Shown: positions 1 through 62,835 of the stretch, in pieces | How the letters are laid out: every line of letters starts with the position of its first letter | Numbering within the stretch: position 1 is the first letter of the stretch | From: Rhodocollybia butyracea | Lineage: Eukaryota; Basidiomycota; Agaricomycetes; Agaricales; Omphalotaceae | Reading direction: 5' to 3' | DNA: 64,000 nucleotides | NCBI GenBank assembly: GCA_015501585.1 | Contig: JADNRY010000236.1 | Coordinates: 1-64,000, forward strand | The notes under the pieces: generated by a model | The model's database searches: none | Told to the model about the DNA's origin: nothing | The model's input: only the letters and a program-made list of their open reading frames with translations | Position numbers and translations under genes: made by a program

Positions 1-1402
1 GACCTTTGAAATTGTTAGCATGAAATTGTGCAACCCTGGTGCAATCATGGCACCAACTGTAGATTATCTAGCAGTATTCAACATATACAATGGCTGTAGG
101 ACCAGGCTTAGCAGCAAGATCACTTAAGTATGCTTCCTGTATGGAGCTAATGAATCTCATGAATATTCGAGGGTAGCAACATCATGATTAGCAATAGGAA
201 CGGATGATAAGTAAACATATAAGCAAAGTGAACTATAAAGCCAATAGAGAAATTAACGTGAGTAACACAGGGTTGACACAGGGAGTGCCTAGACATTGAT
301 CTTGTAGTCGGGGATTGCTGCGCAGCAGCATTAAGGATGCCGTTACTACCGGCAACGGGAGTGTTGCCGGGAGCGCACAAAACTCAGCGCCAACTTACGG
401 CAGGACATACGTGTCCTTTCTTCCCTTCACCAACACCTCACTTCACTCATTTCCTTTTTGTGCCGAGTCTCAAAGCTCTTATATCATTATAGCATGGGTT
501 AACAGCTATGATCAACAGTATTTCAGGTCACACGAGGCTTCGAAAGGTGCGCAACTGTATCGTTGACACTGCAGTTCAGATTCTTATTGTTTTCGCAGGA
601 TTTCCTACTTTAGGCGACTCTGTACACTAGCATTTTCGCTTATCAGGGCCTCAGTGGTCCATGGATATGATGCGAATTGTCCTGACATGACCAGTCATCG
701 ATGTGGGAAGCTACATATCTAGGTACATGGTCTCTCACCTGAATGCCATTGCTCGCTTACATTCTCCCGCTGTTTCATAGCTGCTTTATCTTCTCGCTTC
801 CTATTTTTTGGTGTGTTCCTTTTGCTTTTGCTTGAATGCTATTCTTGAGCTAAGTTTTTTTTTTGCAGGTCGCTGGAGTTGGATGTTCATAGCATGTTGT
901 TAGATGGCTTGTTGTTAGAATCCAGTTTTTGTAGCTTGTAGTTGCATGTACTTTGTAGCAATAATAACTATCATTCTTCACTTTCCTGTTGTTTCTTTGA
1001 CTCTTCTTTGAGTCTTCTAAGTTCTGTCCCAATAGCATTGAATAATTGCTATGTAATGGTCTGCTATTTAAGTCTAACTTACTGTTAATTTCTGTTAATT
1101 TCTGTTAATTTTGAATAATATGCTGAGGGGGGCCGCAAAATTCCTTGTAATACCTCGTAAGTTTATGACTTGGGTAATTTCTGATAACTTCAGCTAAGTT
1201 GGAGTAATATTCAATACATTACTCTAGGACTGTTTTCCTGATGTGAATGCGGCCCCACCTTCAAGATTGCCTTCTCTGAATTGTTGGCCTGAGACTAAAC
1301 ATCACACTGTCTAGTTCAGCCTGTTCGCACCAGCACACTGAATTATCCCTGGGGCCAGATCCAGCCGAATGGGGGCTCCATGTAACTAGCTTTGACCATA
1401 TA
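1..1402. other. Left flank without a recognisable gene
   Basis: No reading frame here is convincing; the open stretches are under 90 codons and have no recognisable motif. The only local pattern is a short tandem run of the unit tgttaatttc at about 1084-1113. The stretch ends at the left LTR of the gag element. Confidence 0.5.
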
Positions 1403-1656
1403 TGTAACGCCTCCGCCTCTCCATAATCACCACTGACCGTATCCGGCAATACGGTCATCCTAGACGCCGCCGATAGACCAAACGGTCTATCTTATCATTC
1501 TATTTATTATTAATTATATAATAAATCCATTACTATAAGTATTGTACGATTACTTAAGAGTCTAGTTAGTCTTTTACACCGTCGTACACACAATAGTATC
1601 CTATTTGTCGTGTTCACCGGTGTTCTTAAGGACTTTGCCCATAGGGCGCGTTATAC
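1403..1656 (+). repeat. 5' LTR of the gag-only element
   Basis: It is the direct-repeat partner of 4508-4645 plus 6529-6644, with one A/G change in a hairpin loop near 1448 and one C/T change near 1581. The ends form an imperfect inverted pair (TGTAACGC and GCGTTATAC). Two hairpins lie inside: 1436-1455 (stem 7) and 1472-1491 (stem 8, loop AAAC). Confidence 0.85.
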
Positions 1657-1824
1657 TTTTTTGAACATCAAAAAAATTACTATTGTGTGAATAACACAAA
1701 GCTATTAGTTTAACAAGCTAAAAACAGTTATACTACCAAGTATAACAACCATTATTCCAACTCACTACACAATCTACACAAACCCGCTCCATTTTTCCGT
1801 CCCGCTATATCATTTGCTGTCTCA

Positions 1825-4167
1825 ATGACCTCTCGAAATCAATCAGAGAAGTCATATCGGAGCGTGCGCGATCGCGCACCTTCCATTCGTGGTGACGTGT
1901 CACCACAATCAATCTATTCAGTCGCATCAGCGACTCATTCCGTGCGTGCGTCTGAAGGACGGCACTACAGGCAGGACAAAAGTCCACCTAATGAACAGTA
2001 TATGACTATTCGTAAGAAACGGCCGACCCGAGAGGGTTTAAGTGAGATTTCTTCTGCGCTACGAGATGTAGCGGCATCACTTGACAAGAGTACGCAAGTA
2101 CTCAATCGTATTCTCAATATAACTGAGAAATGGGATGCATCTAGCATCCGATCTAATGAAGAAAGATCTTCTTCATTGAGAAACAGCAATAGAATCACTA
2201 TTGCTGCACCCACACCGAGACAGCCTGCCGTCACACCGCCGGTATTGCACAATGCAGCACCATCTGTTCCTACCGAGGCAAACAACTTGGTACGCCAATG
2301 GCGTGAGACTGTGCCCAAGGCACTGTCAGTCCAACAATCACTGTTGGACGAACAGTATTCACAAGGGATGACCAAGTCACCCCGTCATGTTCCTGTATTC
2401 CGACAGGAATACGCACCAGTGTCAGTAACTATACCCACACCCATCTACACATCCCGCATGAGACAGAGTCCCAATGCGGAGGCAGCGTCTCAGAGACTGC
2501 AAGGTCCCAGGCCATTACCGGTGACCAAATCTTGCTCACCACAAAACGCGGTGAACATTAAAAGTGAACCGAAGTTACCTCGTAACTTCAATCAGGTAGT
2601 AGCGATACCACCACAGGAAAGTACAATGTACTTCCCTACTGCAAGGGCGCCAATGGTACCCAATATTATTACACCTCCAGTAGTTGTACCAAACACTACT
2701 GGAAATCATTCCAGTATGGGACCGCAACACGGTACCCTTCCGGTAGTTCCTACTACCATATCCATCGCCCCAGCAACACAAAGTGTTGCCCCTCCGGTAG
2801 TACACACTACCGTAAGACTGCCCAAATTGCCGCCCAGCAATGCGCCAGAGCCAAGTTCAATGCCAGTACCAACAGTATTGGCCGAGTTGCAACCACAGCC
2901 GCTTCCGTTGGGAGTAGCTAAAGATTGGATGAGTCGCATAGCGATTCAACGCCAACATAACACCAGTCTCCGAGATTTCGGATTCGCGCCATCTGGGCTT
3001 CCCGACCAAATGGTGGGATATAATGTCGACGGAATACCCGTTGATAAATTGACTACTCCCAGAGAAATCTGGGATCGATTTTACATTCCACCCGCTGAGT
3101 CCTTTCCAGGACCAAGCAATAATGCCGGAGCGAAAGCGCCTAGCAAAAAATCCCGTGAAGGGGGGAGGAAGCACAAGAGTGCTAAATCCAAAGGCCGCAA
3201 ACGCAGGCCATGGTCGGATGAATCATCTGACTCTAGTGATACCGAGTCAAATACTGACTCTTCGTCTGATGCCTCTTGGCTAGACAAATTTGCTACCCGT
3301 AAGGGTAAAATTACTCCTAATGAGCGCCGTAAAATACTGCGTTCACTTGCATCTAAGATGCGAGAAACAACAGGTGACGATGAACATCGTTCCCGATGGA
3401 AACACAAGGTACACAAAGTGTACCGTAAACAAATTCGAGATAAGGTAGAGAATCCTATCCCTCCCATTGAAAGCCGTAAAGCTCTTAAAGTTCCATCTCC
3501 GGAGGTCTATGACGGATCTCCGGATGTCGATGTCTTTGAGCGGTGGCTAATGTCACTTCTCCAATGGATGGTAGTCAACCGCATGTGCGGTGACGATTAC
3601 GATGCTACACGGACTGCCGTGCTTGGCATGTTTCTAAAGGGCAAAGCCCTTGACTGGTATAACGACGAAGTCGCTGGTATACACCGCACTGTCCTTAAGT
3701 GGACATTTGAAGGCGCCATCATTGGTGTCTTTGATGGTTGCATCCAAGCAACGACCATTCATCAAGCTGCACGGCAGTTTGACCTTATTGAGTATTCACC
3801 CGATACGGGTGTGAGGGATTATTATTCCTCACTTACACGATGGGCATCACGGATGCTCCAAACACCGGATGATGCAACAATGCGGAAATGGTTCATTGAG
3901 GGATTACCCTTCAATATTATCAGGCAACTCACGAACGAGGGGATCGTTCCGGAGTATGCCAAATTAGAAGTGATGGTCAGAGCCGTCACACGCATTGAGG
4001 ACCACACGGCCCTCACTAAATATTATGTCTCTTCTAGGAATAGAGACGATGAACTTGAATCATCAGAACACCCCGATGAGTTGGACACCGAGAACATTAA
4101 AAATGTTCTTGAGCCAATTGAGGAGGACACCTCCTTAAGTATCGGAAAGGATAAACCTTCCGAATGA
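1825..4167 (+). CDS. Retrotransposon Gag-like protein
   Basis: This 780-residue ORF has no introns and fills the space between the LTRs. The first 440 residues are Pro/Ser/Thr/Val-rich and probably disordered. Residues about 445-500 are very basic and then acidic-serine-rich (SKGRKRR, then a run of SSDSSD type). From about residue 550 to 730 there is a compact domain of the retrotransposon Gag capsid type: a PEVYDG start, a WLMSLLQWM helix, LKGKALDWYND, then a WASRMLQ helix and an EGLP motif. In this family the region forms the capsid-like particle that packages element RNA. I see no CCHC zinc knuckle, and the C-terminus is acidic. The start ATG at 1825 is the first in frame, about 170 bases after the LTR. 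The coding sequence is saturated with short perfect hairpins (see findings). It is intact, with no stop or frame break. Confidence 0.8.
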   Translation: MTSRNQSEKSYRSVRDRAPSIRGDVSPQSIYSVASATHSVRASEGRHYRQDKSPPNEQYMTIRKKRPTREGLSEISSALRDVAASLDKSTQVLNRILNITEKWDASSIRSNEERSSSLRNSNRITIAAPTPRQPAVTPPVLHNAAPSVPTEANNLVRQWRETVPKALSVQQSLLDEQYSQGMTKSPRHVPVFRQEYAPVSVTIPTPIYTSRMRQSPNAEAASQRLQGPRPLPVTKSCSPQNAVNIKSEPKLPRNFNQVVAIPPQESTMYFPTARAPMVPNIITPPVVVPNTTGNHSSMGPQHGTLPVVPTTISIAPATQSVAPPVVHTTVRLPKLPPSNAPEPSSMPVPTVLAELQPQPLPLGVAKDWMSRIAIQRQHNTSLRDFGFAPSGLPDQMVGYNVDGIPVDKLTTPREIWDRFYIPPAESFPGPSNNAGAKAPSKKSREGGRKHKSAKSKGRKRRPWSDESSDSSDTESNTDSSSDASWLDKFATRKGKITPNERRKILRSLASKMRETTGDDEHRSRWKHKVHKVYRKQIRDKVENPIPPIESRKALKVPSPEVYDGSPDVDVFERWLMSLLQWMVVNRMCGDDYDATRTAVLGMFLKGKALDWYNDEVAGIHRTVLKWTFEGAIIGVFDGCIQATTIHQAARQFDLIEYSPDTGVRDYYSSLTRWASRMLQTPDDATMRKWFIEGLPFNIIRQLTNEGIVPEYAKLEVMVRAVTRIEDHTALTKYYVSSRNRDDELESSEHPDELDTENIKNVLEPIEEDTSLSIGKDKPSE

Positions 4168-4507
4168 TTTATTGGTTTATTCCGACGCCCAGGTAATATG
4201 CCTTACCTGGGCATCACTACTTATCCTCAGCCCGGATTCTCACTGAGAATCCTCATTAAGCAATACTCGGAAACTTCCGAGTCTGCGCGTTGAACATTCG
4301 GACATTTCCGAATCAAATCATGCTCTAGTGGTACGCCCCACTATCGTTTGATTCGGACAAGTCCGAAAGTCTGATGCGCCGCATCAATTAATCCCGTACT
4401 TGATACGGGATCATTCTATGTTAAACCAAATTAAAAATGGTTTGGATGGTGATGATGTCATTACCATTTTTGATTCACATCCCTGATGTTAATCTGGTGG
4501 GGGAGGG
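4168..4507 (+). other. 3' non-coding region and polypurine tract
   Basis: Between the gag stop and the 3' LTR lie six hairpins almost end to end: 4187-4212 (stem 10), 4234-4252 (8), 4265-4282 (8), 4296-4313 (7), 4352-4367 (7) and 4391-4411 (8). The last bases, 4496-4507 (GGTGGGGGAGGG), are a purine run directly against the LTR, as expected of a plus-strand primer for reverse transcription. Confidence 0.65.
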
Positions 4508-4645
4508 TGTAACGCCTCCGCCTCTCCATAATCACCACTGACCGTATCCGGCGATACGGTCATCCTAGACGCCGCCGATAGACCAAACGGTCTATCTTAT
4601 CATTCTATTTATTATTAATTATATAATAAATCCATTACTATAAGT
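4508..4645 (+). repeat. 3' LTR, first part
   Basis: It matches 1403-1540 of the 5' LTR. It includes the hairpins 4541-4560 (ACCGTATC / GATACGGT) and 4577-4596 (GATAGACC / GGTCTATC). It is cut at 4645 by the retroposed insert; the last 14 bases (4632-4645) are repeated at 6515-6528. Confidence 0.85.
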
Positions 4646-6514
4646 TTTTTTTTTTTTTTTTTTTTTTTTTGGAATCTTTTAAACCGTGCGTACAGGTAAG
4701 ACTAAGTACCAAGACACGGGGAGGTGCAGCAGGCTGCACCTCCATTCTATGTAGTGTATGTATTGGGGAGGGTCTTTGGGCGTTGGTGTAGCTACAGGTA
4801 TTGGTGGTGGGTATCAGGAGGGATGTGTAGTTAATCGATGGTCAGGCCCGTGGCCTTGGAAGTATAGAATAAATAGAACATAGCATATGGAACTTGAGCA
4901 TAATTGTGTCGCACATGCTGCCCCAAAATGAAGAGAAGTGTTAGGGCAAAACCAAGTCTACATTCAGGCGTAACCGCGCTGTGGCCATTTGGCTCTTGCT
5001 AGATCTCGGACAGCATCCCCAGCATTCCTCGTATGCTAGAGACACCAAATCCCACGCTACCGGCGGCAAAACCGGCGCACCAACACTCCAGGGTTTAATG
5101 TGGACACCTCGAGCAGAGGCTGGTACAAAACAGCCAGTGATGGGTTGGGTAGATGGTCGGGTAGCCAAGTTAAAGGGTTCTGTTGCCAGGCCCACCACTT
5201 ATTGGTCACCATCGGGGTTATCCCAGCAAGCGCCCTGACTGCGGCTTTCTGCAGATTCCTCCCAAAAAGGTATTCCTGCCGATATATGCCCAGTGCCCCG
5301 GACTGATGACAGTACTAACGCTCTGCAGAGCTCCCAAATTGGTGCAGGGGGGATCTCACCTGCTGCGCCACTGGACCCTCAGGATTTATCCCAATCAAAT
5401 GTACAAGGGAATCAACTCAAGCAGAAACTCCAATTTACCCAGAGTTTCCACCGACGAAGGATTTAGTCCTCTCGGGCCAGCAAATGGAGACTGTCCAAAG
5501 CTGCCACGGCTCAGAGTTGGTATATGCCACCACAGCAAACGGGCCATAGCCCTTCCAGTCCTCCTTCCCGTTCCAAGGCAAGTGCTTCGCTGATGCCAAT
5601 TGGCGCGGATCCGCGACTTGTCCCCGATCTCCGTCTCACCTACCCAGAAAAATCCGAGTAGACTAACCACCTCTATAACATAGAGGCCGATGGTGGCCTG
5701 TCAGCGCTAGCTGTCGGCTGGTTATTGCCCCAAACGCCATCAGTTATTGGACCTTTATCTCTAGGCAGACCTGGAATGCCATCATCGAGTCCCTTTTGGG
5801 AGAGTAGTTACCACCCGGTGCCACAGATTAAGGTAGAAGGATAACACACAGAGATTGAGAACTTACACTGTGTCCTTCACGGTAGGTATTAGAGAGTGTG
5901 GCTACTGCCCCTGCGAACCTTGGATACCACCCAAGGGCTCCCCAATGAGTTTAATGTCTAGAATCAACCACCAACCCATGCTTGAGCAGAGTCAAGAGCT
6001 ACAGGGCTAAAGAACCAGACAGTGCATCTAAAATCCAGAGCTTGACCATCTGCCATTGCAAACCTCCTTTGCCAAGGGAGGGCTCAGGAACTGGAGCTTG
6101 GCCATTTGCCACTGCGAACCTCCTTTGCCAAGGGAGGGCTCCAGAATGTATGAAAATATACCAGGGAAGCTTGGCCATTTGCCAGAGACATGTACATGTA
6201 TCTTCCTTTGCTAAGGGAAGACTCACCCAGTAAGTGCATTTATAGTCCCAGGCCATGTCTGTTATGGTTACCTGAGACTCGGAAATATGGCGCCAGTACT
6301 CCGGCTTTAAGTCTCCCTTACCACAGGAGTACCATAGATCCGGCGCTAGGACGATGTGGCGACTTTCACAGCCATACTTTCCCAGAAGTAGATAGATAAT
6401 ACTATCTTGTACGGATGGAAATGGCCCTTCTTGCTGCCAGCGAATCGAAAAAACAGACGCGTAAGCGTGAGAAAGTTCCGAGATGATGGTGGTTACAGAT
6501 CAAGAAGCGTCGTG
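4646..6514 (-). mobile_element. Retroposed 1.87 kb sequence inside the 3' LTR
   Basis: The insert starts on the plus strand with about 25 T (to 4670), so its sense strand is minus with a poly-A tail. It is flanked by a 14-base target duplication, CCATTACTATAAGT (4632-4645) and CCATTACTACAAGT (6515-6528), with one mismatch. These are marks of LINE-type target-primed insertion. No long ORF exists on either strand, so it is non-autonomous or a processed copy of some RNA. A strong hairpin with a 10-bp stem lies near the tail (4720-4743). At about 6040-6225 there is a degenerate tandem repeat of about 60 bases containing CTTGGCCATTTGCCA and CCTTTGCCAAGGGAGG. I do not recognise the source. Confidence 0.7.
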
Positions 6515-6528
6515 CCATTACTACAAGT

Positions 6529-6644
6529 ATTGTACGATTACTTAAGAGTCTAGTTAGTCTTTTACACTGTCGTACACACAATAGTATCCTATTTGTCGTG
6601 TTCACCGGTGTTCTTAAGGACTTTGCCCATAGGGCGCGTTATAC
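6529..6644 (+). repeat. 3' LTR, second part
   Basis: It matches 1541-1656 of the 5' LTR with one C/T difference. Together with 4508-4645 it restores a full 254-base LTR, which proves that the intervening sequence is a later insertion. Confidence 0.85.
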
Positions 6645-6835
6645 CATAGCTGCAGATTTCCAAAGTGATGTACATTGTATGCATAGCATAAGTATGATTG
6701 AGTAGCGATATTTTAGCCTAATAGTAACAATGATTTTAAAGAATACTAATGCTACAGCACCGTTCACACATACCATGATATAATTGTCCAAGAATGCGAA
6801 GATCAGCAGAACTAGTGCAAAAGGTTCTTAGCTCA

Positions 6836-8379
6836 TTAGAAGCTCCGAAGGGAGGAGTCATAATCTCTCTCAATGTTGACAACGTAGTCAATATGAACTG
6901 CGGAAGGTAACATTACGGGCTTAGTTTCCTGTGGGATAACTGGAGCCATTGAATTGTTGTGCTTCTTTCTCCAGAAAAGCCAGACTACAAGGAGATCCTA
7001 TAGAGGGTATTCAATTCATAGTAAGCAATACATTCATCACAACGATTACACTTACTTTATGGGTTCCAAAGATAACCACAGCAGCGACGGGAACTGGATT
7101 TCGTAAGGTATGAGCTTTAACTCGATATTATGAATTCTTACTCATAGATAGAACAATGTCTAATTCAACTAGGCCACTATTAGAGTTTTCCTCGTTGAGG
7201 AAAGCAACCACAAAGAAGAGGAGTCCAATGCTATTGCATTTCAAGATAACATCGATTAGTATTCTCAACGAATGAGCTTGATCACTCACGCTACAGAGAT
7301 GACACCAAAAAGCACGAATACAGACACCCGAATAAACATTGAGTTGAAGTTTCCTGCGCGCAGCATTGACCTGTGCTTGCGAAAACGCAGGTATATCAAA
7401 ACTGCGAGTTTAAAGGGACCATTGGTACTAGGAATGAATTTATAAGCTCGAAGGCAGCCTACAATTTAAGACAAGTATTGGAAGGACGAAAATGATATCG
7501 AGTGCTGAAGTTATTCGGCCACTAAAAGAGAAATGAGATGGAGATAAGTAATAACATTATAACTCACGGGACATGGTTCTCCAGTGAACAATATGAAATC
7601 GAAGAGAATTTGGCATTGGGAGAAGCAAGGGCTATCTGTGGAAAGGTCATTCCTAAGCGGGATGGTAAGAAAATTAATCAATGCTCACAATTGTGGACTC
7701 TATGACCACAAAAATAAAGATAGCGTATGGCGTTACAACTAGCTATAGAAGGGTAAAAGGTTAGGCTAGTAAACATGGTTGCAGGACAAGTAATAACAAT
7801 GATTCTCCAATATCTTGACCCTCCAATGGACTTTCCGGATAGCGTGGAGCTGATATTGAAGAATAGCTACATGACAGCGACAAAGGTAAGAAGTAAGAAA
7901 ACATAACAGTATAGAACTTGCCTGGGTAACTAATGCTAGCGCACAAGCGGTACAACTATTGAAAGGGCCTTGTCAACTAGTTACGCTCCTCAACGACGAA
8001 TCTCGAGCTCACAGTGGGGATGCGGCGTAAGTGAGGGACGATTGAATAATACAGAGAGGGAGTCCAGGTTCTCCGTCATATACATGTCCCGCGAAAAACA
8101 AGAGCAAGTATGACACGGTGAATACTACTAAACTCCCATGAGGTTATACCAAGTAGCCTGCCTTGGTTGGGAGGAAAAACGAGCGGCGACCAGCGTAAGT
8201 ACAGACCCAATAAGGCCTATCAACTGAAAAATATTGAAAACCAGTAGCTCTGGACCAAAATGCGTCACATCTATGATCGTGTCAACATGCGCCGAACCAA
8301 TACCTAGCATTTCAATGAAAAGTAATCGCACACCTTCGTTGGATGCAGACGGGTCAATATTCGCCAGATCCTGCGCCAT
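6836..8379 (-). CDS. Agaricomycete seven-transmembrane protein, probably intact apart from two indels
   Basis: Nine exons on the minus strand: 8379-8013, 7955-7922, 7866-7798, 7742-7689, 7635-7568, 7521-7290, 7230-7142, 7093-7056, 6997-6836. The chosen start is MAQDLANID at 8379. Hydrophobic segments in order include LLVFNIFQLIGLIGSVLTL, VSYLLLFFAGHV, YAIFIFVVIEST, ALDIIFVLPILVL, RVSVFVLFGVISV and IPVAAVVIFGTH, with a loop YCSLENHVPGR, ending in a basic cytosolic tail after LLVVWLFWRKK. I recognise this as a 7-TM family common in mushroom genomes; its function is not known to me. Intron 7867-7921 has a GC donor (GCAAGT). Two one-base frame breaks, at the A run 8130-8132 and the CC at 7458-7459, each fall within conserved segments, so they may be base-calling indels. 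It is divergent from the DUF3419 gene, 895 bases away. Confidence 0.65.
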
Positions 8380-9274
8380 GGCCTCCCTGTGTTCTGAAAC
8401 TGAAGAAAGAAAACAAAAGTAAGATGGCAATGGCAGAGAAAATCGAACATCTGCCAACCATGTTTAAGTACTCAATGAATACTCATAAGGTCGCAACGTG
8501 CTGCAGCGGCGAATATCATGCATCACGATGAACAATTATTTCAATTGAGTTCGATGAGCGGTTCTGTTAGTATCGACTTCAAGTGCACTGCATCTCAACA
8601 GAGTCCCCAGAAACTCCGAATACGTAAAAGTATTTACGCCGCGATTTGGTGGTTTCCTATCTTAAGTATTAGATGTATATTGGCACGTCGGTGCCGACTT
8701 GTCCGAGAGCGCTCTCGGTTTCTTATGGTCGGATGGAAACGAGCGTTGACCGAAGGAAACGATACTAGGGTCTCCCGATAAAGTATTGCTCGGTAGGTGT
8801 AGATTACCGGCTGACAGCCACAGGAACGCTCAGAAAGTATGTGTGTAGACTCGGAGACCAGAAAAATTGGACAGATAAAGCTTTGGGGTCCTCGACATCG
8901 TGATGAACGAAGTAACTGGCTGTGGGGCCCAGATATGGATATTGTTGTTATCATCGATTTGGCCAGCTAACCAGTGTTCAACGTTGCCAACGTTCAGGCC
9001 TGCAGGTCTCGCATGAGGTTGGTGATGCAATTGTAAACAGGACCATATTAGTGACTCTAGTGTGAAATCATTTCTCATAAGCTTTACACCTCAGAAAAGC
9101 CTTACCTTAAGAGTAGATAGAATCGTATAGTCATCAAGTAAGGTATTGATGATTACGAAACTACACGTGAATAAAAGCGAAGTACGGTTTGATGCTGTTT
9201 GATGCTGGGCTGCTTCTCATCAGATCTCGAAATGAGGCCCGCTAAAAGCTCATCATTCAAGTTGCTTCTAGCTT
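8380..9274. other. Divergent intergenic region
   Basis: This 895-base region lies between the 5' ends of the 7-TM gene (-) and the DUF3419 gene (+), and presumably carries both promoters. I see no clear TATA box, repeat or coding stretch. A near-repeat of GATGCTGTTTGATGCTG occurs at about 9191-9207. Confidence 0.5.
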
Positions 9275-10962
9275 ATGACTCTTGCTCAGGTTTATCAAGT
9301 TTTGGTCGACTGGTCTTCAGAATATCTTCCGGAGAATGAGAAAGCAAAGGTAGACGACAACGCGCCTGACGACTGTCACGACTCGGTATGTCTCCGTGTG
9401 CTCTCACAGAATCACTTGAACTGAATACTTTTCAGCTGTGGCGTAAGCCATACAACTCCGATGCTCATTGCGAAGAGCTCAACACCTTTATCTACTCGTT
9501 CACCTGGGTGTGTATATGAAGCCTATGTCTGATGTTTCTACGAACTAAATCGCCGCATAGGAGGATCCAGAAGTTGACATGCAACATCTCTCTCTCAGTC
9601 CTTCAGATTCAATGTTTGTTGTCACGTCTGCCGGAGACAATCCCCTACACTACTCCATTGCCTCGTCTCCTCGGAATGTAAGGCATTACCGCACAATATG
9701 CTCTAAGTCTGACAAGTCCACAGATATACTCTGTTGACATGAACCCTTGGTGCGCTGGAATTCCTCGAATGTAATCCTGGCATTCATTATTGTTCTCAGT
9801 CAAGGACATCTCCTGGAACTGAAGTTAGCTTCCATCAAATCCCTCGAGTTTTCCGATTTCTTTAGTTTGTTCGGTCGTGGTTGCCACCCTCATTTCCGAA
9901 AACTGCTCGATGACAAAATCCGACATTACCTTTCACGCGCGGCTTACCAGTTTTGGATCGAAAATGAGGCCGCGTTTTCATCGTCTTTCTACGAACAGGG
10001 CTATAGCGGAAGGGCAATTCGTCTCGGCCGACTTTTATTCAAGATAGCAGGAGTGCGCAAGCACGTTGAACGTTTATGCAGATGTGACTCGTTGGAGGAG
10101 CAAGTGCATATTTGGAGGACGAAGCTACGTCCAGTCTGGCTGAATCCGGTCGTAATCGCATTGCTACGAAACCCTGTATTCTGCTGGAATGCTTTGGGTG
10201 TGCCATTAAACCAGAGGAAAATGCTACTTGACGAAGGTACACAGTTCACTACAATCGTCCCCAGGCTGTACTAATCTTTTCGTATAGGTGGAGTGTATCA
10301 ATACGTCTGTGATACTCTAGACCCTGTTCTCTCAACGTATCTACTCAAAACCCAGAACTACTTTTACCTTTTGGTGAATATCTATAAGACATCAGTGTCG
10401 TCGTCTACTGATAAATGGCTTCAGCCTCTTCTAGGCCATTATACCCCAGAATGCTGTCCCTCCTATCTCACTCGTGAAGGCTTCGCCAAACTGAAAGCCA
10501 ACAACTGTGAACGCCTGAACGCCTTCCAATTACACACGGACTCCATTATAAAGTGAGCAGTATTCAAGCTTGTTCCTGTCGCAGTTCAAATTACATTGAG
10601 CATTTTGTTTTCAGTGTACTTCGCGGTATACCTCCCTCATCACTGACACGGGCACTGGTTATGGATCATTTGGACTGGTATGACCCTGCCTCGTGCGAAG
10701 CCAGAGCTGAGGTAATGGAACTTTCTCGAGTAATTGCTCCAGGTGGCCTTGTTTTCTGGCGTTCAGCGTCCCGATGTCCGTGGTACAACAAAGTCTTTTC
10801 GCAGAATGGATTTCATGTGGAGGCGGTAAGCATTCGAGAGCAGGGATCGAATGCCGCCCTTGACCGAGTCAACATGTGAGCTTGGTTGTGCTCTAATGCC
10901 CTAGAAAATTCACATTTATTTCTTCTAGGTATGCTTCGTTCTGGAAGGCCGAAAAGATATGA
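9275..10962 (+). CDS. DUF3419 / BtaA-like S-adenosylmethionine:diacylglycerol 3-amino-3-carboxypropyl transferase
   Basis: Nine exons: 9275-9385, 9436-9507, 9561-9677, 9724-9749, 9800-10236, 10288-10373, 10425-10552, 10615-10875, 10929-10962. The total is 1272 bases, 423 residues, with all splice sites GT-AG and the frame unbroken. Diagnostic BtaA/DUF3419 motifs are YSFTWEDP, the SAM-binding loop TSAGDNPLHY, VDMNPCQ (across an intron), ELKLASI, the GRG loop, YEQGYSG, SLEEQ, GVPLNQ, then CCPSYL and a C-terminal DHLDWYDP. In bacteria BtaA moves the aminocarboxypropyl group of SAM to diacylglycerol, the first step to the betaine lipid DGTS. Fungal Bta1 proteins usually fuse this part to the BtaB methyltransferase; this gene has no methyltransferase part and is about the length of bacterial BtaA. 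It may make only the first intermediate, work with a separate methyltransferase, or act on another acceptor. Confidence 0.85.
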
Positions 10963-52799: not shown

Positions 52800-54570
52800 T
52801 AGGTCTGGGCCACCGAAGGTAGCTCAGTCAGAATGTCCGCAAGTCAAAGGAAGATTGGAATAGCAGTTTACAAATGCCGCGTGCTGGAAAAGCGCTGCGG
52901 CCTCGTTCCAACTTCTCCAACGTTCCTTCCTCCAACTTTCCCAGAGGCGTTCCAACCTTCCCACCCATATCCTTCAAGGTGAGTTCGAGCTTCCCGAATG
53001 ACGAACAGTTGAATGCTGATACCGGATCTATATTCTTTAATCAAGGGCGGTCATGTCCGAGCGCATTTAAACATGTTTAATTCTTGGTTTAATTACTGTT
53101 GTTTAAACGGTCACTACCACTACACCGTAACTAAACAACTATAGCTAAGGAAACTTCAAGTTTGAGTGCCAGCATTTAAACAAAACATCTAAATTAGAAC
53201 ATAAACCAATATTTAAACAAACTGGTTCACTGTAATTTAAACCAGACACTTTAAACAAAGACTGTGTCAAGAATCCTCACCGTTTAAACTTATGTACACT
53301 AAGCTAAACCACAACTTGGCGTAGCTCATTATTCAAACACACGCACGTCTCGGACTCGCCGAAATTAAAATAACCTGATTAGACGGAACTTGCCTGGAAC
53401 TCTCTGAGTCGTTGTCCAACTTCAAATCCTTCAGCCTCCAGATGTACGGTTAGATCTCAGTAAAGGCTGCAAGTTTCAGGGATGATCAGGATTCAGGAGC
53501 TCAAAAAACTCACCAATCAAACACAAAACGCTCGTGCAGAGATGTACTCTATCTGTGGAAGTCGTCGAAAATTTCGAAATGAGGTGGCTAGCTTGCCAGC
53601 AACTGGCAGTGGCAAAGGGGTGGCACTGAAGGTGATGGAAGTTGACAAGAGAAAAGTAAATAAGCAAAGGTGATAGATCTTTCCGTTACCGGCTGACCAC
53701 TACACAATAAAGATCAAACAATGGATTTTTTCCTTCTTGTGGCCCAAACCGTTCAAAAATTCAAATGCCCAAGTATTGTTCAATTCTATTGTTCAGTGCA
53801 CGACGCACGTGGCTAGCCCACTGCCATTGGTGAAGTTGGTTCTATTTTGTTTGCCTTTCTCTTGTCGACCACCACCTTCGGCACCACTCACCTAGCTTAT
53901 CTCAATGCACGATGTGAGTAGCAGTTGTGACATAAACTCGCTCCATGATCATTATCTGACAAAATAGTGTCAAGAGCAGCCTGCAGGTCAAGAGAGGCCA
54001 GGCGTTCAGAGGCAGAAGCAATTGGCAAGGTTTTAGGTAAGTATATGTGATTCGTGAATAGCATTGGGATGCCTTATTCAGGTGCCTTCAACTGAATTTG
54101 GCCGAGTCCATGTTTGAACAAAGCGCTGTAATTAGAAGTTCAAAACCTTTGTTTAATTCTAGTTTAAATCACAGTGGTGCGATTTTTTTCGGTTTTTGTT
54201 TAGATACATTGTTTGGATATTCTGTTTAAAGTACTTGTTTAAATCTATTACTTAAATCTCTTCGTTTAATTAGATATTGAAGAACTGTAGGAGCTGTACA
54301 GTCAGTGTAGAGCAGAGTTGTGGATTAAATACAGCCAAAGATGATTTAAACAAGTTTAAAATCACTTGGACATGACCTCCCATGATTAAAAAATATAGAT
54401 CCAGATTCTTTTGAATGGAGTCCGAAGAGGTAAAAGTCGGGGGAAGCGCGGCTATGGGCATCCCAGGAAAAGGAACGGTCCAAAGAATTCTTTGGTCATG
54501 TTGGTGGCCGGAGGTTGGGGCAGAGACTGGGAAGCTCTGGACGGAAGAGATTTAGGTTTGTAAGCGCTCG
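52800..54570 (+). repeat. Duplicated block Y, copy 2, split by element B
   Basis: 52800-53015 and 54411-54570 match 42570-42866. It ends, like copy 1, in GCTCGACATCGAA and about 30 bases of GST (ACCTCTTCCCAAACACCTCC to about 54600), the smallest GST remnant of the array. Confidence 0.6.
53016..54410 (-). mobile_element. Inverted-repeat element B with TTTAAAC clusters
   Basis: It is a 1395-base copy of element A in the opposite orientation, with ends CTGATACCGGATCTATATTC and, inward from the right, AAGAATCTGGATCTATATTT. The target duplication is TTGAATG (53009-53015 and 54411-54417). It has the same TTTAAAC-rich subterminal regions and the same small ORF (53667-53476 on the minus strand). It is diverged from A by substitutions and small indels; neither codes for a transposase. 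Confidence 0.7.
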
Positions 54571-54609
54571 ACATCGAAACCTCTTCCCAAACACCTCCCA
54601 GTGTGCACT

Positions 54610-55140
54610 TACTATGTTCTTGTTCTTTGTCTTCCATCGATTTGCTAGCATGTTGCAGTCGAGTATGCCGTCAGGAGGGAGAGTGCGGCTAGAATAGAGA
54701 AAAGAGATGCTGGTGACAAAAGGTAACGTTACTTCATCTATCATCGTTGAACTTTTGAACGTTGAGGTAGTAGTACGGGATGGAAAAGGAAAAACAAAAC
54801 ATACTCACACGTGCTCTTGCACTCTGTCAATCAAATGATTGTCCTGGACCTTTCACCCATATAACCATCGCACGTAGAGTCCCTCTTGGAATATATCGTG
54901 ATTCTGTCAATATGTACATCCTCTCCTTAGTGTTCTGTCAGGACCCAAATGACAGCCTCCCAGAGACCAGTTCACTGGTAACAGGGGGGAAAAAAGAAAG
55001 AAAAAAATGCGGAGATCATTGCCTCATATATAGGGAGATCCAGAAGTCGGAGTATATACGGAAAGCTATTCCCCAGCCCAATCTAACAATATAAGCTGAA
55101 TAGAGTCTACTAGAACTTACTAGAACCTGGTAGCTCCTCA
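54610..55140 (+). repeat. Spacer repeat, copy 3
   Basis: Colinear with 37250-37760 and 43690-44190. No hydrophobin follows it here. Confidence 0.6.
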
Positions 55141-56073
55141 GGAAGATGTGAATCATCCTTGGCAAAGGGGTGTTCTTCCGGATGAAAGGGGAGTATAAAT
55201 GGATACAGGGCATGACAACCAGTCTCATATGAAGAATGAGAAATTGACAAAAATTGCACACTGTGATGATTCCATTAAATTTCCTGACTGTATCTAAACA
55301 TCAGGTTGCAACTAATATACAGACCGAAAACCTAGAGAACAGCCTTTGAAAGGACCATGGAAAGTGTAAAAACACACACTTGTGCTCAGGAGAAATTGCT
55401 TGCCGTCCCTCACTATGCTGATTTGCTGGGAGATATGATAGATGAGGATGAAAACTGAGCATGGTCAAAAGCTCACTTTGAGTGAGAGCAGCTGGAGGAC
55501 GGAAATGGCAAAGTGGGTACACAAAGCTTGTGAAGCTGAGTGAGAGGAGGGAGAAGGAGATACTGAGCTACCTGAGTGTCCAGCACTAACTGCACCAATC
55601 ATCCCATCAACATCTCAGTCATCTTACTAACCTCTGAAGCTCACTCTTGCAGAGCTTTTTGGTGAGTTATCAAAGTGAGCGCAAAGGTCAAGGAGGGCTA
55701 TTTATCAAAAGGCAGAGCTTATGGAAGCTCTGGCTAACATTGATGAGGATTCTATCCTCGACAATGGTGCAATCAAGATTGATGATGATGAAGTGTATCA
55801 GGAATGATATTTGTAGCACAAATTCACACAGCTGTTTAAAATCAATAAAATTGATTTTAGGCCTTAAATAGACCTAAGCCTTTAAGGTCTGGGATTTCTT
55901 ATCTAAGGCCATAATGTAGAACACTGGAACTTATCACTCATTGTAGAACCTTTAAAAATGACCAGGAGGTCTTGGGTTCAAGTCTGGGTGTGACCAATGT
56001 TGCAAACGCTGGAGCAAGCACCCACCCGGCAGGTAAGTGCTCAGGAACTGGTACCTGTGTACATGTGGACTTA
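55141..56073. other. Intergenic region, nothing recognised
   Basis: Short ORFs only, the longest about 80 codons and without motifs. No match to the other blocks was noticed. Confidence 0.4.
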
Positions 56074-57761: not shown

Positions 57762-58965
57762 AAGGGGCTGGATTGCAAAATATTTTTTGGATAACCTTTG
57801 ATTGTAGTGGATGAGGCCAAAGCTGTATGCCCATAAAAGGAAATCAATGAAAAGTGTTGAGTCTAAAGATTGCTTGATATAACATGCAGATTGGCATGGA
57901 TAAGGGTGATCCTTTTCATCCCCTGATGCCCTGATGTGCTGTCTACCCTTTCTGAGTCTCAGATATATTTAGATGGCCACTGGGAGATCAGTCTTTATTG
58001 ATCTTTGAACTTTCTCATCAAAAACCCTCATTTTTTCGAAATTAGAGGATAAGTATCAGAGCATCCAGGGCAGGGTGGGCCACAGGCTTCTAGGACATTG
58101 TACCCTGGTATAATAGGTACATTTAGACGACTCAGGAGTAGCTTATACTGTCCTGGGAGAGTGGGTGATAATTGATCTCTGTATATGTATGCATAAATTT
58201 CGCTTTTTGGACCATCAAATTGTTAATAGAGGCAGCTGTAGGCAAGGGATTGAGGAGAAACTCGAGGAATAGTGTACCAGGACTTGATATAGCATGTCTA
58301 TAACAAAATATTCTCACTATCTGAAGTTCAACATGTGATGATAAGTTTGACACAAGTATCAGACACTTAAGAACCCAGGAGTACTGGTACATCAAGATAA
58401 GGGAAGGGGTTATCAGGAAAAGGTTCTGATATCAATCTATGTATTTCTAGCATGCTATATGCCAAGCTAGACAGTCTTCTCTTGCCTACAGCTCCCACTA
58501 TTAATGATTTAACAGGCAAAAAAGCGAAATTTATGCCTAATTAGACAGGTATCACTTATTATCCACTCTCCCAGGACAGTATAAGCTACTCCTGAGTCGT
58601 CTAAATGTACCTATTATACCAGGGTACAATGTCCTAGAAGCCTGTGGCCCACCCTGCCCTGGATGCTCTGATACTTATCCTCTGATTTGGAAAAAATGAG
58701 GGTTTTTGATGAGAAAGTTCAAAGATCAATAAAGACTGACCTCCCAGTGGCCATCTAAATATATCTGAGACTCAGAAAGGGTAGACAGCACATCAGGGCA
58801 TCAGGGGATGAAAAGGATCACCCTTATCCATGCCAATCTGCATGTTATATCAAGCAATCTTTAGACTCAACACTTTTCATTGATTTCCTTTTATGGGCAT
58901 ACAGCTTTGGCCTCATCCACTACAATCAAAGGTTATCCAAAAAATATTTTGCAATCCAGCCCCTT
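57762..58965. mobile_element. Foldback element with 449-base inverted arms
   Basis: Arms 57762-58210 and 58517-58965 are inverted copies, with only scattered differences, around a 306-base spacer. Outer ends are AAGGGGCTGGATTGCAAAAT and its complement; inner ends are GCATAAATTTCGCTTTTT and its complement. No target duplication is evident. No ORF crosses the element. The arms contain the motif CAGCTTTGGCCTCATCCACT, which recurs in the flanking repeats to the right. Confidence 0.8.
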
Positions 58966-59430
58966 CCCACCACAGGATTGGCTTCATTTTAGGTGAGCAA
59001 CCTATTCTGTGTATAAACAAAAGGTCTGGATGTCTACCACAAGCTATTGTCCTTAGGAAAAGAGTGTACACAGTTTGTGTGTTCAGTTTTGTCATTTCTT
59101 AATTGGGTAGTGAAAACAGCTTTGACCTCATCCACTGCAAAAGATTTGTCATTTTTCAAATAAGTAATGAAATCAGCTTTGACCTCATCCACTGCAAATT
59201 TGTCACTTCTCAATTAGGCAATGAAAACAGCTTTGGCCTCATCCACTGCAAAAGTTTTGAACTTGCCTAATTAAGAAATAAAAGTCTATTGAAATAAAAT
59301 TGCCTAATATAGTAATTTATCAAAATTTCCAAATGTATCTAACTCTATTAAAAAAAACATAAAACCGGTTAAGGTGTTTGAAAATTGCCTTATTTGGTAA
59401 TAAAACAGCTTTGACCTCATCCACTGCAAA
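58902..59430 (+). repeat. Dispersed repeats of a GCTTTGACCTCATCCACTGC motif
   Basis: Copies lie at about 58902-58921 (end of the foldback arm), 59117-59139, 59174-59197, 59229-59250 and 59406-59430, irregularly spaced in AT-rich DNA. Confidence 0.75.
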
Positions 59431-59471
59431 AATGGAAAAATTTCCTAATTTAGTAATTTTTAAATTGGCTT

Positions 59472-60163
59472 GGGTCATGACCTAGGCCAGGTAGGTCATG
59501 ACCTAGTTCATCCAGGTCATGGCCTAGGTCAAGTAGGTCATGACCTAGTTCACCCAGGTCATGACCTAGGTCAAGTAGGTCATGACCTAGGTCAGGTAGG
59601 TCATGACCTAGTTCACCCAGGTCATGACCTAGGTCAAGTAGGTCATGACCTACCTGACCTAGGTCATGACCTAAAAAGTAGGTCATGACCTGAATCAGCT
59701 AGGTCAGGTAAGTCACATTCTTGCCTGACAACCCAGAACAGGGCACTGTGACTTAGCTTGATCTTGTCATAATCTACAGATATGTAAAAAATCCCAATAA
59801 TCCCAATATGTTACTACACATTTCTTGTCATGATTCTATGATATTTCATTCTTGCTTATATTCTCTATCTCACCATCCTCCACTCTCACCCTACACCTCT
59901 TAAACTAACTATATATCCCCCTCCTAGACCATAACCTCCTCCTCCTAGACTATACCCTCCCCCTCCTAGACCATCCCCTCCCTCACCTAGACCATCCCCT
60001 CCCTCACCTAGACCATGCCCTGCCCCACCTAGGCCATATCCTATCTCACCCCAGGCCATGACCTACCAACCCCAGGAAAAGACCAACCTGACCTAGGTCA
60101 TGACCAATTTTTTAGGTCATGACCTAATTCCCAGGTCATGACCTAAATCCCAAGGTCATGACC
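59472..60163. repeat. Array of the palindrome GGTCATGACC
   Basis: Perfect copies at 59473, 59494, 59536, 59557, 59578, 59599, 59620, 59641, 59662, 59681, and then at 60096, 60115, 60134 and 60154. A GGTCATGGCC variant is at 59514. The first group has a 21-base period, alternately followed by TAGTTCACCCA and TAGGTCAAGTA. Between the groups lies a CT-rich stretch with repeated CTAGACCATCCCCTCC (59920-60060). Confidence 0.9.
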
Positions 60164-61326
60164 TAGCTGCCCGGGTTTTGCCTAGGTTTTTGGGTCTTTT
60201 TAGTAAGGTCAATGTAACAAAAGTGCAGACTAATAAGACCAAATATGTGGGTGACTGAACTGCAAAATCTCTGTCTTCCCACTGTTGTAGGTGTTTTGTT
60301 AGTCCCTGTATACATGTTTGGGAGTCGCTATGGATGGAGATGTCAACATCTTTGGGCGCCCCACTCACACACTCCTTGATTGCAATGATTTCACCTGTCT
60401 GGTTACTCTGTTTAAATTGTTCAGGGATTTTGATGGTACGGTTTTGCTGGTTGTCGTTCTCGCAGTAAATTCCAGACCCTGTTGTTGGTCCTTCATTGCC
60501 AGTGTTTTTGTAAGACCCATCTGTGTAGAATCTAAGTTCCTCTAGCTTGTTTGCCTCCCATTCTTGTATGGGTATGCTATCACTTCTGTCTCCACTTGTA
60601 AATACTCGGAACGCATCTGCAAGGGTGCCACCTGTTGTAATTCTCCAGTCAAAGTACTCTGCATGTTCTGACCCGGTTGCAGGTATGTGTCCAGGTTCAA
60701 AGTCTTCTGGCAGCCGGGACATTGGGTTCCATTTCTGCGGAAGCTTTTGCAGAAGCTCACTTGCCTTCCGTATACATTTATACGGGCATGCACAGTTTAT
60801 CTCCCTCAATGAAGTGCAGCCGGCGCATCGGCAGTTTCGCCGCCCTGTGTGTCTCGCAGTCCTTGATAGTCTTGCAATGGCTTCCGTTTCTCCCACTGTT
60901 CTGACCTTGTGATTTTCACGCAGACAGCGGGTTTCTTTACTATTATGGATTGTTTGGATCCCATCTGCTTCCCGGTGCAGCCAGATAGGCATTTTGCGAA
61001 GGATGTCTCGTGAGAAGGCCAGACCCTCCATGCGGACGCCAAACTTTGCTGCCACATTCATCATGTCTTTAAGGTCTTGAGGGAGGTCTCCCTTCTTCAC
61101 ATTCCAGGATTGTAGAAAGACATTTATTTTTGACCATTCATCAATGTTCTCATCACATCGGGGGACATGCTTAGCTATGAGTTCGTCTGCAATATATGCC
61201 CATGTTGCTCTGTCTTCATTAAAGTTGAGGTAGGATCGCAGCCAGGTTACCATGATAGCCTCATTTCGGGCAACAATGTCTAGGACTTGTCGTCCCCCAC
61301 TCTCGATTGGTGCATCTACTGTCTCT
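60156..61326 (-). CDS. LINE RNase H region, truncated
   Basis: It is read on the minus strand from the RT end. A linker with cysteine pairs (CRCAGCTSL) and CACPYKC lies before the RNase H fold. RNase H motifs are FYTDGSYKN (first Asp), GEIIAIKEC (Glu) and IHSDSQTCI (second Asp). The final part of the fold is missing: the ORF runs into unrelated sequence near 60210 and stops at 60156 inside the palindrome array. Confidence 0.7.
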
Positions 61327-62835
61327 TTATTTACTCGGACAAAGTCTTTCTCTGCCCAGAGGAATTTTTTGATTTGTTTTTTCCAGTTTTGCCTCCACTT
61401 CTTTGGGCATCCCCTGTATCTTTGTGAGATATTGGGTCATGCCACCCACAATCATTGAGATGATTAGGCGTCTCCCTTCCATTGTAGGCATGCATTTTTC
61501 CCATCTAGCTAGAGATTGGTCTATTTGTTTGATTACTCTGGTCCATGGTTCAACTTGGCATATTCCATTGCCTATCAGTGCTCCAAGGGATCGGATGGCC
61601 TCGCCTTTGCGTGCTATTTTGATATGTGCGGGGATTTTATCCCCATCTTCTCCGTTCAAGAGTCTTTGTTGACAGAGTCTATCACGGTATTCAGGTGTGC
61701 CAATTGGAATTATTTCCGTTTTGTTAATGTTGAATTTTGCCCCAGACGCTAGGCACCATTCCTCTAGGATCATTTCTAGATCACTGAAGTTGTCTTCCTT
61801 TGAGAGGTACACAGTTGTATCATCTGCGAAGAAGGTCGCAATTAGCCGTTCAGCTTTTTTGGGGATATTCATCCCTTTTAGGTTGGATTGACGGAGTGCC
61901 TCACCTAAGGGCTCAATAGCAAGGTCAAACAGTAAGCATGATAGCGGGTCCCCTTGGCGGACCCCTCTCTTTACTTGGAAACCTGTGGAACTTTTCATTC
62001 CATTTACCATGACTACAGTGTATGCATTGGAATATAGGGCTTTTACTGTGTTAGTATATTCTTCGGGGAAGCCATAGGCTTGTAAAATTTGCCAAAGGTA
62101 GTCATGTTTTATCTTATCATATGCCTTTTCTTGGTCTAATGCTACAATTGCCCCATCTTGTTCCGTTACTTCTGCCAGGTTTATGACAAGTTTTGCGAGC
62201 CAGACTTGGTCAAATATTGGCCTTCCTGGAACAAAACCAGCCTGTGCACGGTCAATTAGGCCTGGTGCTACTTCCGCAAGTTTAATGGTGAGTGCCTTTG
62301 TCATGATTTTATAGTCGGAGTTCAGTAGGGAGATTGGTCTATAGTTGGGTATTTCTGCCTGGTCATTCTTCTTGTATAGTGGGCACATCCAACTTTCTGA
62401 GAACCCCGTGCCGGGTACCATTCCATGCACTTCGATGTCATTGTACACCATTCGTAATGTCCAGACTATGTTGAATTCCTCTTTTTCGTGGGCCTTGGCA
62501 TTTTTGTATCTGCGGTCGATGAGTTTCCATATCTCATAGCTGATCCCGTTTAGCCCTGGTGCTTTGTCATTCGCCGATAATTTGAGGGCTCTTGCTACGT
62601 CTTCATCAGTCAGATGATTTTTTAGTTTCTCCTGTTGTTCAGCCGTGAGTGTTTTATTCAGTCTTTGTAAGACCTGTCGGGTTGTTTCCTCTCGCACTGT
62701 TTCATTTGGCAATAGCTCATCATCTTGTAGCTTTCCGTGGTGATCTCTCATCATATCTGCCATGGTCTGTGAGTTTTTCTCATACTCAATTTCCGGTTCC
62801 CAAGCTCTATTGTTGCCATGTTGGTGTTGTTCCAC
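61327..62835 (-). CDS. LINE reverse transcriptase domain
   Basis: This 502-residue stretch has all the usual RT blocks: KLSANDKAPGLNGISYEIWK, MCPLYKK, NYRPISLLNSDYKI, AGFVPGR, VALDQEKAYD, GVRQGDPLSCLLFDLAIEPL, the catalytic FADD box (ATFFADDTTVYLS), then FNINKTEII and a GALIGNG thumb motif. The FADD box is intact. The C-terminal frame is shifted at the T run 61377-61382; with one base less it continues into FLWAEKDFVRVN and the RNase H linker. Confidence 0.85.
   Translation of the reverse strand: MEQHQHGNNRAWEPEIEYEKNSQTMADMMRDHHGKLQDDELLPNETVREETTRQVLQRLNKTLTAEQQEKLKNHLTDEDVARALKLSANDKAPGLNGISYEIWKLIDRRYKNAKAHEKEEFNIVWTLRMVYNDIEVHGMVPGTGFSESWMCPLYKKNDQAEIPNYRPISLLNSDYKIMTKALTIKLAEVAPGLIDRAQAGFVPGRPIFDQVWLAKLVINLAEVTEQDGAIVALDQEKAYDKIKHDYLWQILQAYGFPEEYTNTVKALYSNAYTVVMVNGMKSSTGFQVKRGVRQGDPLSCLLFDLAIEPLGEALRQSNLKGMNIPKKAERLIATFFADDTTVYLSKEDNFSDLEMILEEWCLASGAKFNINKTEIIPIGTPEYRDRLCQQRLLNGEDGDKIPAHIKIARKGEAIRSLGALIGNGICQVEPWTRVIKQIDQSLARWEKCMPTMEGRRLIISMIVGGMTQYLTKIQGMPKEVEAKLEKTNQKIPLGRERLCPSK

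Follow-up and report, generated by a model that had tools for sequence, protein, structure and literature searches.

The window analysed here, the first 64,000 nucleotides of contig JADNRY010000236.1 of the basidiomycete Rhodocollybia butyracea (forward strand), carries near its left end a long terminal repeat (LTR) retroelement with a gag-like protein, in which an earlier note, made from the sequence alone, had reported an unusual density of short perfect hairpins running through coding sequence and LTRs alike. The locus raises the question as to whether the whole length of a reverse-transcribing element can be under selection for its structure, and on which molecule such selection would act.

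Hairpins are counted here as maximal perfect inverted repeats with a stem of at least 6 bp and a loop of 0-10 bases. All 15 of the hairpins listed in the earlier note are present at their positions, two of them being longer than reported (2676-2703, with a 9-bp stem and a loop of 10, and 4234-4252, with a 9-bp stem and a loop of 1), but its total of at least 37, including 12 with stems of at least 8 bp, is exceeded: the interval 1660-4600 holds 50, of which 26 have stems of at least 7 bp and 16 of at least 8 bp. Over 1401-4645 there are 59 hairpins against 6.75±2.84 in 300 dinucleotide shuffles (maximum 17), and for stems of at least 8 bp the corresponding figures are 21 and 0.42. The only long open reading frame (ORF) of the element (1825-4167, 780 codons) contributes 37 hairpins, where 500 shuffles preserving both protein and codon usage give 6.2±2.5 (maximum 13) and dinucleotide and codon-order shuffles give 4.8 and 4.9 respectively; the codon-shuffle test that had been proposed thus falls clearly in favour of the original observation. 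The 5′ LTR (5 hairpins vs 0.74) and the leader (2 vs 0.44) were counted separately, and RNA folding of 1825-2800 and 3650-4640 gives z-scores of -12.4 and -11.1 (20 shuffles each). The claim that the surrounding DNA lacks this density stands for the 3′ flank (6650-9590; 7 vs 7.1±2.6) but needs qualification for the nested insert (4646-6525; 8 vs 4.1±1.8) and the 5′ flank (1-1395; 7 vs 3.3±1.5), both of which are raised about two-fold, if far below the element. Hairpin saturation is confirmed as real, and it is larger than first reported.

The element is a single LTR element at 1403-6643, split by a nested insert, and its parts are as follows.

1396-1400, no strand: target-site duplication CCATA, 5′ copy, with two extra bases (TA) before the LTR.
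1403-1655, plus strand: 5′ LTR of 253 bp, TGTAACG...CGTTATA, hairpin-rich, its ends set from copies with flanking duplications.
1657-1675, plus strand: hairpin TTTTTTGA-ACA-TCAAAAAA, immediately 3′ of the LTR at the place expected for a primer-binding site; the helper family described below has a near-identical sequence.
1683-4596, plus strand: 50 perfect hairpins with stems of 6-10 bp and loops of 0-10 bases.
1825-4167, plus strand: gag-only ORF of 780 amino acids, capsid-like at about residues 500-760, ending upstream of the zinc knuckle and protease found in relatives.
4168-4494, plus strand: 3′ non-coding region with very dense hairpins (13 vs 1.4 over 4168-4645).
4495-4507, plus strand: polypurine tract TGGTGGGGGAGGG.
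4508-4645, plus strand: first part of the 3′ LTR, beginning after TGGTGGGGGAGGG.
4646-6528, minus strand: insert nested in the 3′ LTR, with poly-T at its head.
6529-6643, plus strand: remainder of the 3′ LTR.
6644-6648, no strand: target-site duplication CCATA, 3′ copy.

Other copies have the same LTR ends and readable 5-bp target duplications. With its LTRs, 5-bp target duplication, polypurine tract and gag, and with no pol, we classify the window element from its sequence as a gag-only, non-autonomous LTR element, probably belonging to a Ty3/Gypsy clade. The nested insert, flanked by a 14-bp duplication with one mismatch (4632-4645 and 6515-6528), is probably a reversed poly-A retroelement. 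The sequence following the 5′ LTR is CTTTTTTGAACATC, which has no TGG start; in the window element and at locus L060 the post-LTR hairpin at the expected tRNA primer site takes the form TTTTTTGA-(A/G)CA-TCAAAAAA, and within the LTR at about 1600-1610 there is a GTG(T/C)TC sequence complementary to GA(A/G)CAT (with one G.U pair), such that the difference between the two families is matched. Self-priming from this LTR complement is possible, the complement being about six bases long and recognised by eye.

Pfam gag domains match the window protein below the cut-off only, and no relative of the whole protein was found among 7992 scored candidates. Residues 500-760 are nonetheless 60% identical to part of a 1326-residue protein from a JGI contig (P0001), which extends further to include a zinc knuckle (CYGCGKPGHFANDPTC) and a DSG motif resembling that of proteases, whereas the window protein ends earlier; both motifs are visible in P0001 even though their Pfam matches (0.004 for the knuckle, 0.025 for the protease) are below the cut-off. 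A search of the R. butyracea genome (95.6 Mb in 1381 contigs) with P0001 gave at least 54 matches (35 scored of 744 candidates), the top ORFs having the same architecture at 86-88%; the closest matches belong to a family that we refer to as the helper. A copy on contig C605 contains between its LTRs a gag-knuckle-protease (PR) ORF, a reverse transcriptase (RT) ORF, an RNase H-integrase (IN) ORF and a third ORF, with Pfam matches above the cut-offs for RVT_1 (8e-28), RT_RNaseH (9e-28), Integrase_H2C2 (3e-16) and rve (6e-9); the order PR-RT-RNase H-IN is that of Ty3/Gypsy elements. Its LTRs are identical over the first 181 bp, the extent of the comparison. The third ORF (4093-6237 of locus L061) encodes 714 residues with no Pfam match above cut-off and a sub-threshold coiled-coil match. 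Among the best 120 of 577 public matches, relatives are 50-61% identical, and the nearest named ones, which are assigned to agaricomycetes (Peniophora, Phanerochaete, Trametes and Armillaria), show 50-56% identity in RNase H-IN. The helper has in common with the window element the LTR start TGTAACGCCTCC and end GGGCG..TTATA, the post-LTR sequence CTTTTTTGA(A/G)CATCAAAAA and the tract GTGGGGGAGGG, and because these LTR ends, post-LTR motif and polypurine tract are common to both, we infer that the C605 Ty3/Gypsy family likely mobilises the window element.

The helper has the same trait. Over 10,813 bases a helper copy contains 154 hairpins with loops of up to 10 bases, against about 22.6 in the summed shuffle table, and these are spread from LTR to LTR at 0-8 per 250 bases (mean 3.6), with only 2 in the 1.5 kb upstream. 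For stems of at least 6 bp each ORF exceeds all 300 codon-preserving shuffles (gag-PR 51 vs 8.9, RT 19 vs 3.6, RNase H-IN 30 vs 6.6, third ORF 35 vs 5.3); at a stem length of at least 8 bp the RT ORF has 2, no more than the highest shuffle.

How far the trait extends was examined at 11 loci picked by RT identity to the helper from 113 matches (104 scored of 451 candidates), all within one genome. Six loci with 66-81% RT identity have 24-72 hairpins where 7-10 are expected: L063 (81%; 72 vs 8.4) and L064 (79%; 64 vs 8.3), by eye of the same family, L077 (75%; 44 vs 8.2), L075 (70%; 47 vs 10.1), L076 (66%; 31 vs 6.9) and, the weakest, L070 (80%; 24 vs 8.7), part of which may lie outside the element. 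The counts for L063, L064 and L070 are over 3.6-3.9 kb. Two gag-PR fragments are similarly rich (L058, RT 84%, 28 vs 5.5; L059, RT 77%, 29 vs 5.2). Five distant RT loci (33-44%) have 11, 14, 16, 9 and 17 hairpins against 6.7, 7.5, 6.9, 6.4 and 7.5, with folding z-scores of -0.4 to -1.0, and the four best of 147 Pfam gag loci have 17, 10, 14 and 5 against 8.1, 6.8, 8.1 and 6.6. Saturation is therefore rejected as a feature of the genome's Gypsy elements in general, the distant RT loci being raised 1.4- to 2.3-fold rather than six- to nine-fold; it is a clade trait within the one genome, found in complete element and passenger alike. Three distant Gypsy stretches in a bacterial assembly (genome_contigs), presumably misbinned, have 27, 16 and 17 hairpins against 15.8, 10.4 and 8.9, and a mild hairpin excess may be common among Gypsy elements. 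Relatives were also sought in viral_contigs, where none was confirmed. In L063 the pol frame is still open over 1282 codons or more, and more than one family of the hairpin clade may therefore have been recently active.

Elsewhere in the window, 2.9-kb pieces contain 3-12 hairpins each, save for two that overlap the element, one with 23 and one with 43. The piece with 23 (52939-55879) has about two to three times the usual window count, with 5 of its 23 stems being at least 7 bp long. The piece with 43 (58821-61761) was considered as the same phenomenon and rejected, as it reflects a tandem palindromic minisatellite, TAGGTCATGACCTA, at 59473-59700 and 60094-60164, the densest hairpin patch of the window. 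The minisatellite adjoins minus-strand ORFs at 60156-63985 that are endonuclease-like and reverse transcriptase-like, and which probably belong to a non-LTR retrotransposon with a FADD-like motif.

The fate of individual stems can be followed between families. Across 743 aligned residues the gag proteins of window element and helper show 45% identity, and in the codon alignment the two share 36 exact stem pairs (stems of at least 5 bp) against 0-18 at shifted registers; between the helper and L058 there are 61 against 0-9, and 26 against 0-6 for stems of at least 6 bp. These alignments indicate that a minority of stems are homologous, most clearly between helper and L058, and that most have turned over; a single conserved fold is rejected, only a minority of stems being common to the families. 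In pol we compared one family pair, the helper and L063, over 3559 aligned bases (75.8% identical), leaving out stems that touch gaps. Of 55 helper stems, 11 have all their pairs in L063 as well, and the same holds in the helper for 20 of 64 L063 stems. Where both sides of a pair have changed, the new pair is again Watson-Crick in 18 of 28 cases in one direction (p=0.004 against a null of 0.378) and in 24 of 34 in the other (p=4e-5 against 0.358), the two directions having stems in common and not being independent; pairs changed on one side only are rarer than expected (0.232 where the null is 0.356, and 0.247 where it is 0.360). At third codon positions the proportion that differs is 0.369 and 0.379 in stems versus 0.495 outside (p=5e-4 and 7e-4), or 0.417 when the stems of either family are included (p=0.01), and in the same comparison second codon positions show no difference between stems and outside. 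A search for paired changes, as the earlier note had proposed, therefore supports its expectation for a minority of stems, but not for the many that have turned over.

A finer time scale is provided by the window's own family, for which there are at least 44 DNA matches (40 scored of 537 candidates) and at least 63 protein matches (58 scored of 714 candidates) in the genome, placing its copy number in the dozens as a lower bound. We analysed 33 of 46 copies (window included), leaving out seven copies with split matches (L038-L044) and six further copies (L049-L054); a longest ORF of at least 780 codons is kept in 10 of the 33. Private variants fall in stems (89 of 330) at close to the stem share of columns (0.247). 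Among variants present in 4-7 copies only 11 of 75 are in stems (p=0.026), and of those in 8-16 copies 6 of 36 by a broad definition of stems (p=0.23) and 2 of 36 by a strict one (p=0.004). Pairs lost number 37.5 per copy, compared with 58.3 under random placement (6 replicates), and pairs gained 13.1 compared with 13.7, so that newborn hairpins are not in excess in these copies; stem-pair changes present in two or more copies comprise 54 single-change states and 2 double Watson-Crick states. We read these patterns as stem-breaking variants dropping out of transposing lineages without immediate repair, with hairpin birth not above chance. Outside stems, C-to-T and G-to-A changes, in near-equal numbers, account for 126 of the 241 private variants and 155 of the 211 shared ones, as expected from methylated-cytosine decay in a silenced repeat. 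In addition, L034, L035 and L049 each match the 3′ non-coding stretch a second time (query 2897-2970, 72% similarity), and further matches in L049 overlap at query 876-1025; all of these hint at small local duplications.

If the target were a fold of the sense RNA, G.U pairs should outlast A.C mismatches, and this is not observed. Stems with one inner mismatch have G.U in 19 cases and A.C in 34 in total, about the ratio in shuffles; transitions in the stems of copies are G.U-keeping and A.C-making in 36 and 34 cases among private variants, and in 16 and 20 and 4 and 6 among shared ones; and the G.U share of predicted folds, which does not depend on the perfect-stem search, is below that of shuffles on both strands. 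In overlapping 120-nt segments of the window's family the folding z-score is -3.50 for sense and -2.64 for antisense, with about +0.4 in control DNA at 8-16 kb. The hairpins are exclusively short and local, with loop lengths peaking at 3-5; C-G closing pairs (0.327 vs 0.208 in shuffles) and G-C outermost pairs (0.332 vs 0.207) are over-represented, and sense-strand loops are A-rich (0.40 vs 0.31). Beyond this A-richness no fixed loop motif was found, GNRA being present in 6 of 52 four-base loops by reading. The loop lengths, terminal pairs and A-rich loops suggest that hairpin stability matters, although the same loop and closing-pair preferences could arise if copying depended on a stable hairpin.

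On balance we favour selection on the folded nucleic acid in a two-strand form, in which the whole sequence is kept as short local Watson-Crick hairpins. The combined effect of selection on many hairpins, each of them weak, interchangeable with others and subject to birth and loss, would favour local folding everywhere, and most likely both genomic RNA and complementary DNA (cDNA) would be under pressure, since equal folding of the two strands is possible for Watson-Crick pairs only. The hairpins might allow the nucleic acid to be packed compactly into gag particles, protect it from silencing or nucleases, or ease reverse transcription; our first guess would be compaction and shielding for particle loading, because the trait is kept in an element supplying only gag and cis signals. 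A more specific version, in which the genome of this clade, coding sequence included, is kept as a hairpin array by a two-strand pressure common in cis to helper and passenger, we put forward only tentatively. Both the function of the hairpins and natural selection as their cause are deductions from sequence comparison. Selection for a folded nucleic acid, which the earlier note had suggested for the genomic RNA as one of two causes, receives support from the codon shuffles, the covariation, the avoidance of stems by variants found in several copies and the slower third positions; its plain genomic-RNA form is only partly supported, given the lack of G.U over A.C and antisense folding that is equal outside the window's family.

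Several observations weigh against selection of this two-strand kind. Most individual hairpins are not common to families, and for stems of at least 6 bp the window element and helper share 14 pairs against 0-12, barely above one register (12). The fourfold sites in the helper-L063 comparison are borderline (66 of 146 differ in stems vs 128 of 231 outside, p=0.058), and variants present in 2-3 copies do not avoid stems (39 of 156, p=0.66). Outgroup Gypsy RT loci are themselves raised 1.4- to 2.3-fold over shuffles. G.U is not kept above A.C in the helper-L063 pol comparison (22 vs 34 and 19 vs 33), in contrast to what ordinary selection for an RNA structure would give, and sense and antisense z-scores are close in the helper (-3.16 vs -2.96, p=0.2) and in L063 (-3.14 vs -3.19); since both strands fold about equally in two of the three families, the target need not be sense RNA alone. 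Pressure on both genomic RNA and single-stranded cDNA would account for these features, as would arm repair that escaped detection.

The most serious alternative, which we nevertheless consider rather unlikely, is that the reverse transcriptase snaps back and copies one arm from the other, making and repairing hairpins, the passenger being copied by the same enzyme. Watson-Crick pairing with no G.U preference, near-equal folding of both strands in two of three families, the restriction to short local hairpins, the tracking of the trait with an RT clade in the genome and the occurrence of compensations would all be accounted for. According to a published account (PMC8794818), template switching can create and maintain RNA hairpins, leaving as its marks multiple simultaneous compensations, stem extension, loop changes and loop inversion, but in its intrastrand form it leaves the loop intact; single compensations with no loop inversion are therefore compatible with it. 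The copies have, however, gained no more pairs than random placement provides (13.1 vs 13.7), and 2 pair states with double Watson-Crick changes in two or more copies stand against 54 with single changes. Arms are not overwritten one-sidedly, being no more one-sided than displaced pseudo-stems; loops are identical in the forward orientation in 92 of 132 cases and in the reversed in 36 of 132; and of the 32 stems classed as conserved, which have lost no more than one pair, 20 show no compensation, 10 show one and 2 show two. Nor is slower third-position change in stems expected from unbiased repair. Template switching, the second cause that the earlier note had suggested, is thus disfavoured, there being no newborn excess in the 33 copies, no one-arm overwriting and no loop inversion, and mostly single compensations, and selection fits better; repair of single mismatches within a strand, which would spare the loop, is a less likely alternative.

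That selection should act solely on the sense genomic RNA, for instance to counter RNA silencing or to help particles assemble via dispersed hairpins, seems improbable. Sense folding z-scores of about -3.1 to -3.5 per 120-nt segment in three families, against about +0.4 in the control, A-rich loops on the sense strand and the sense excess in the window's family would be in keeping with it, but there is no G.U preference, no strand difference in the other two families and no fixed loop motif beyond A-richness. Dispersed packaging signals have a common loop motif that is bound by coat protein. An artefact of base composition or of amino-acid content, or a side effect of low-complexity coding sequence, can be dismissed as highly improbable: the N-terminal half of gag does appear by eye to be rich in P, S and T, but shuffle means of 4.8-6.2 for the window ORF and 3.6-8.9 for the helper ORFs are far below those observed, RT and IN are raised too, and four gag and five RT loci of other families are near background or at most 2.3-fold above it.

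The helper resembles other Ty3/Gypsy elements of Agaricomycetes in having gag, a CCHC knuckle, a protease motif, RVT_1, RNase H, H2C2 and an rve integrase, and departs from them in its hairpin saturation, its extra 3′ ORF and a post-LTR sequence with no TGG start; the other Gypsy families counted in the genome do not have the trait strongly. TR-GAG elements are non-autonomous plant LTR elements with LTRs, a polypurine tract and a gag ORF but no pol, and the window element is similar in all of these respects, but is in a fungal host, has a gag that ends before the zinc knuckle, and is saturated with hairpins. Genome-scale ordered RNA structure is known from some RNA viruses, where pairs are kept on the transcribed strand and G.U is tolerated; as in these, folding energy here is far below that of shuffles over the whole length, coding included, but there is no G.U preference and little strand bias, and the element is an LTR retrotransposon. 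The RNA of yeast Ty3, a related type of element with local RNA structure, is described in PMC11381356 as a mosaic of structured and dynamic regions, with stable structured regions making up as much as 30%, and is not a uniform hairpin array. The template-switch hairpins of PMC8794818 are likewise perfect local hairpins with compensatory changes, but no compensation in blocks, inversion of loops or copying of one arm was found in the present families. We found no description of a hairpin-saturated LTR element in the literature searched, which covered few subscription papers. To our knowledge, a whole-genome hairpin architecture is known in no retroelement.

The question of whether selection for structure acts along the whole length of a reverse-transcribing element, and on which molecule, becomes testable with these families, as Gypsy families with and without saturation occur together in a single genome, the trait is present in both a helper and a passenger, and divergence is sufficient for covariation. 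If the pressure is on cDNA or on both strands, this would be a constraint not usually considered for retroelements, and synonymous sites would be under an additional constraint, one that is ignored when such elements are dated from their rates. Saturation together with matched changes in the arms points to an unrecognised demand on the nucleic acid of the element as a whole.

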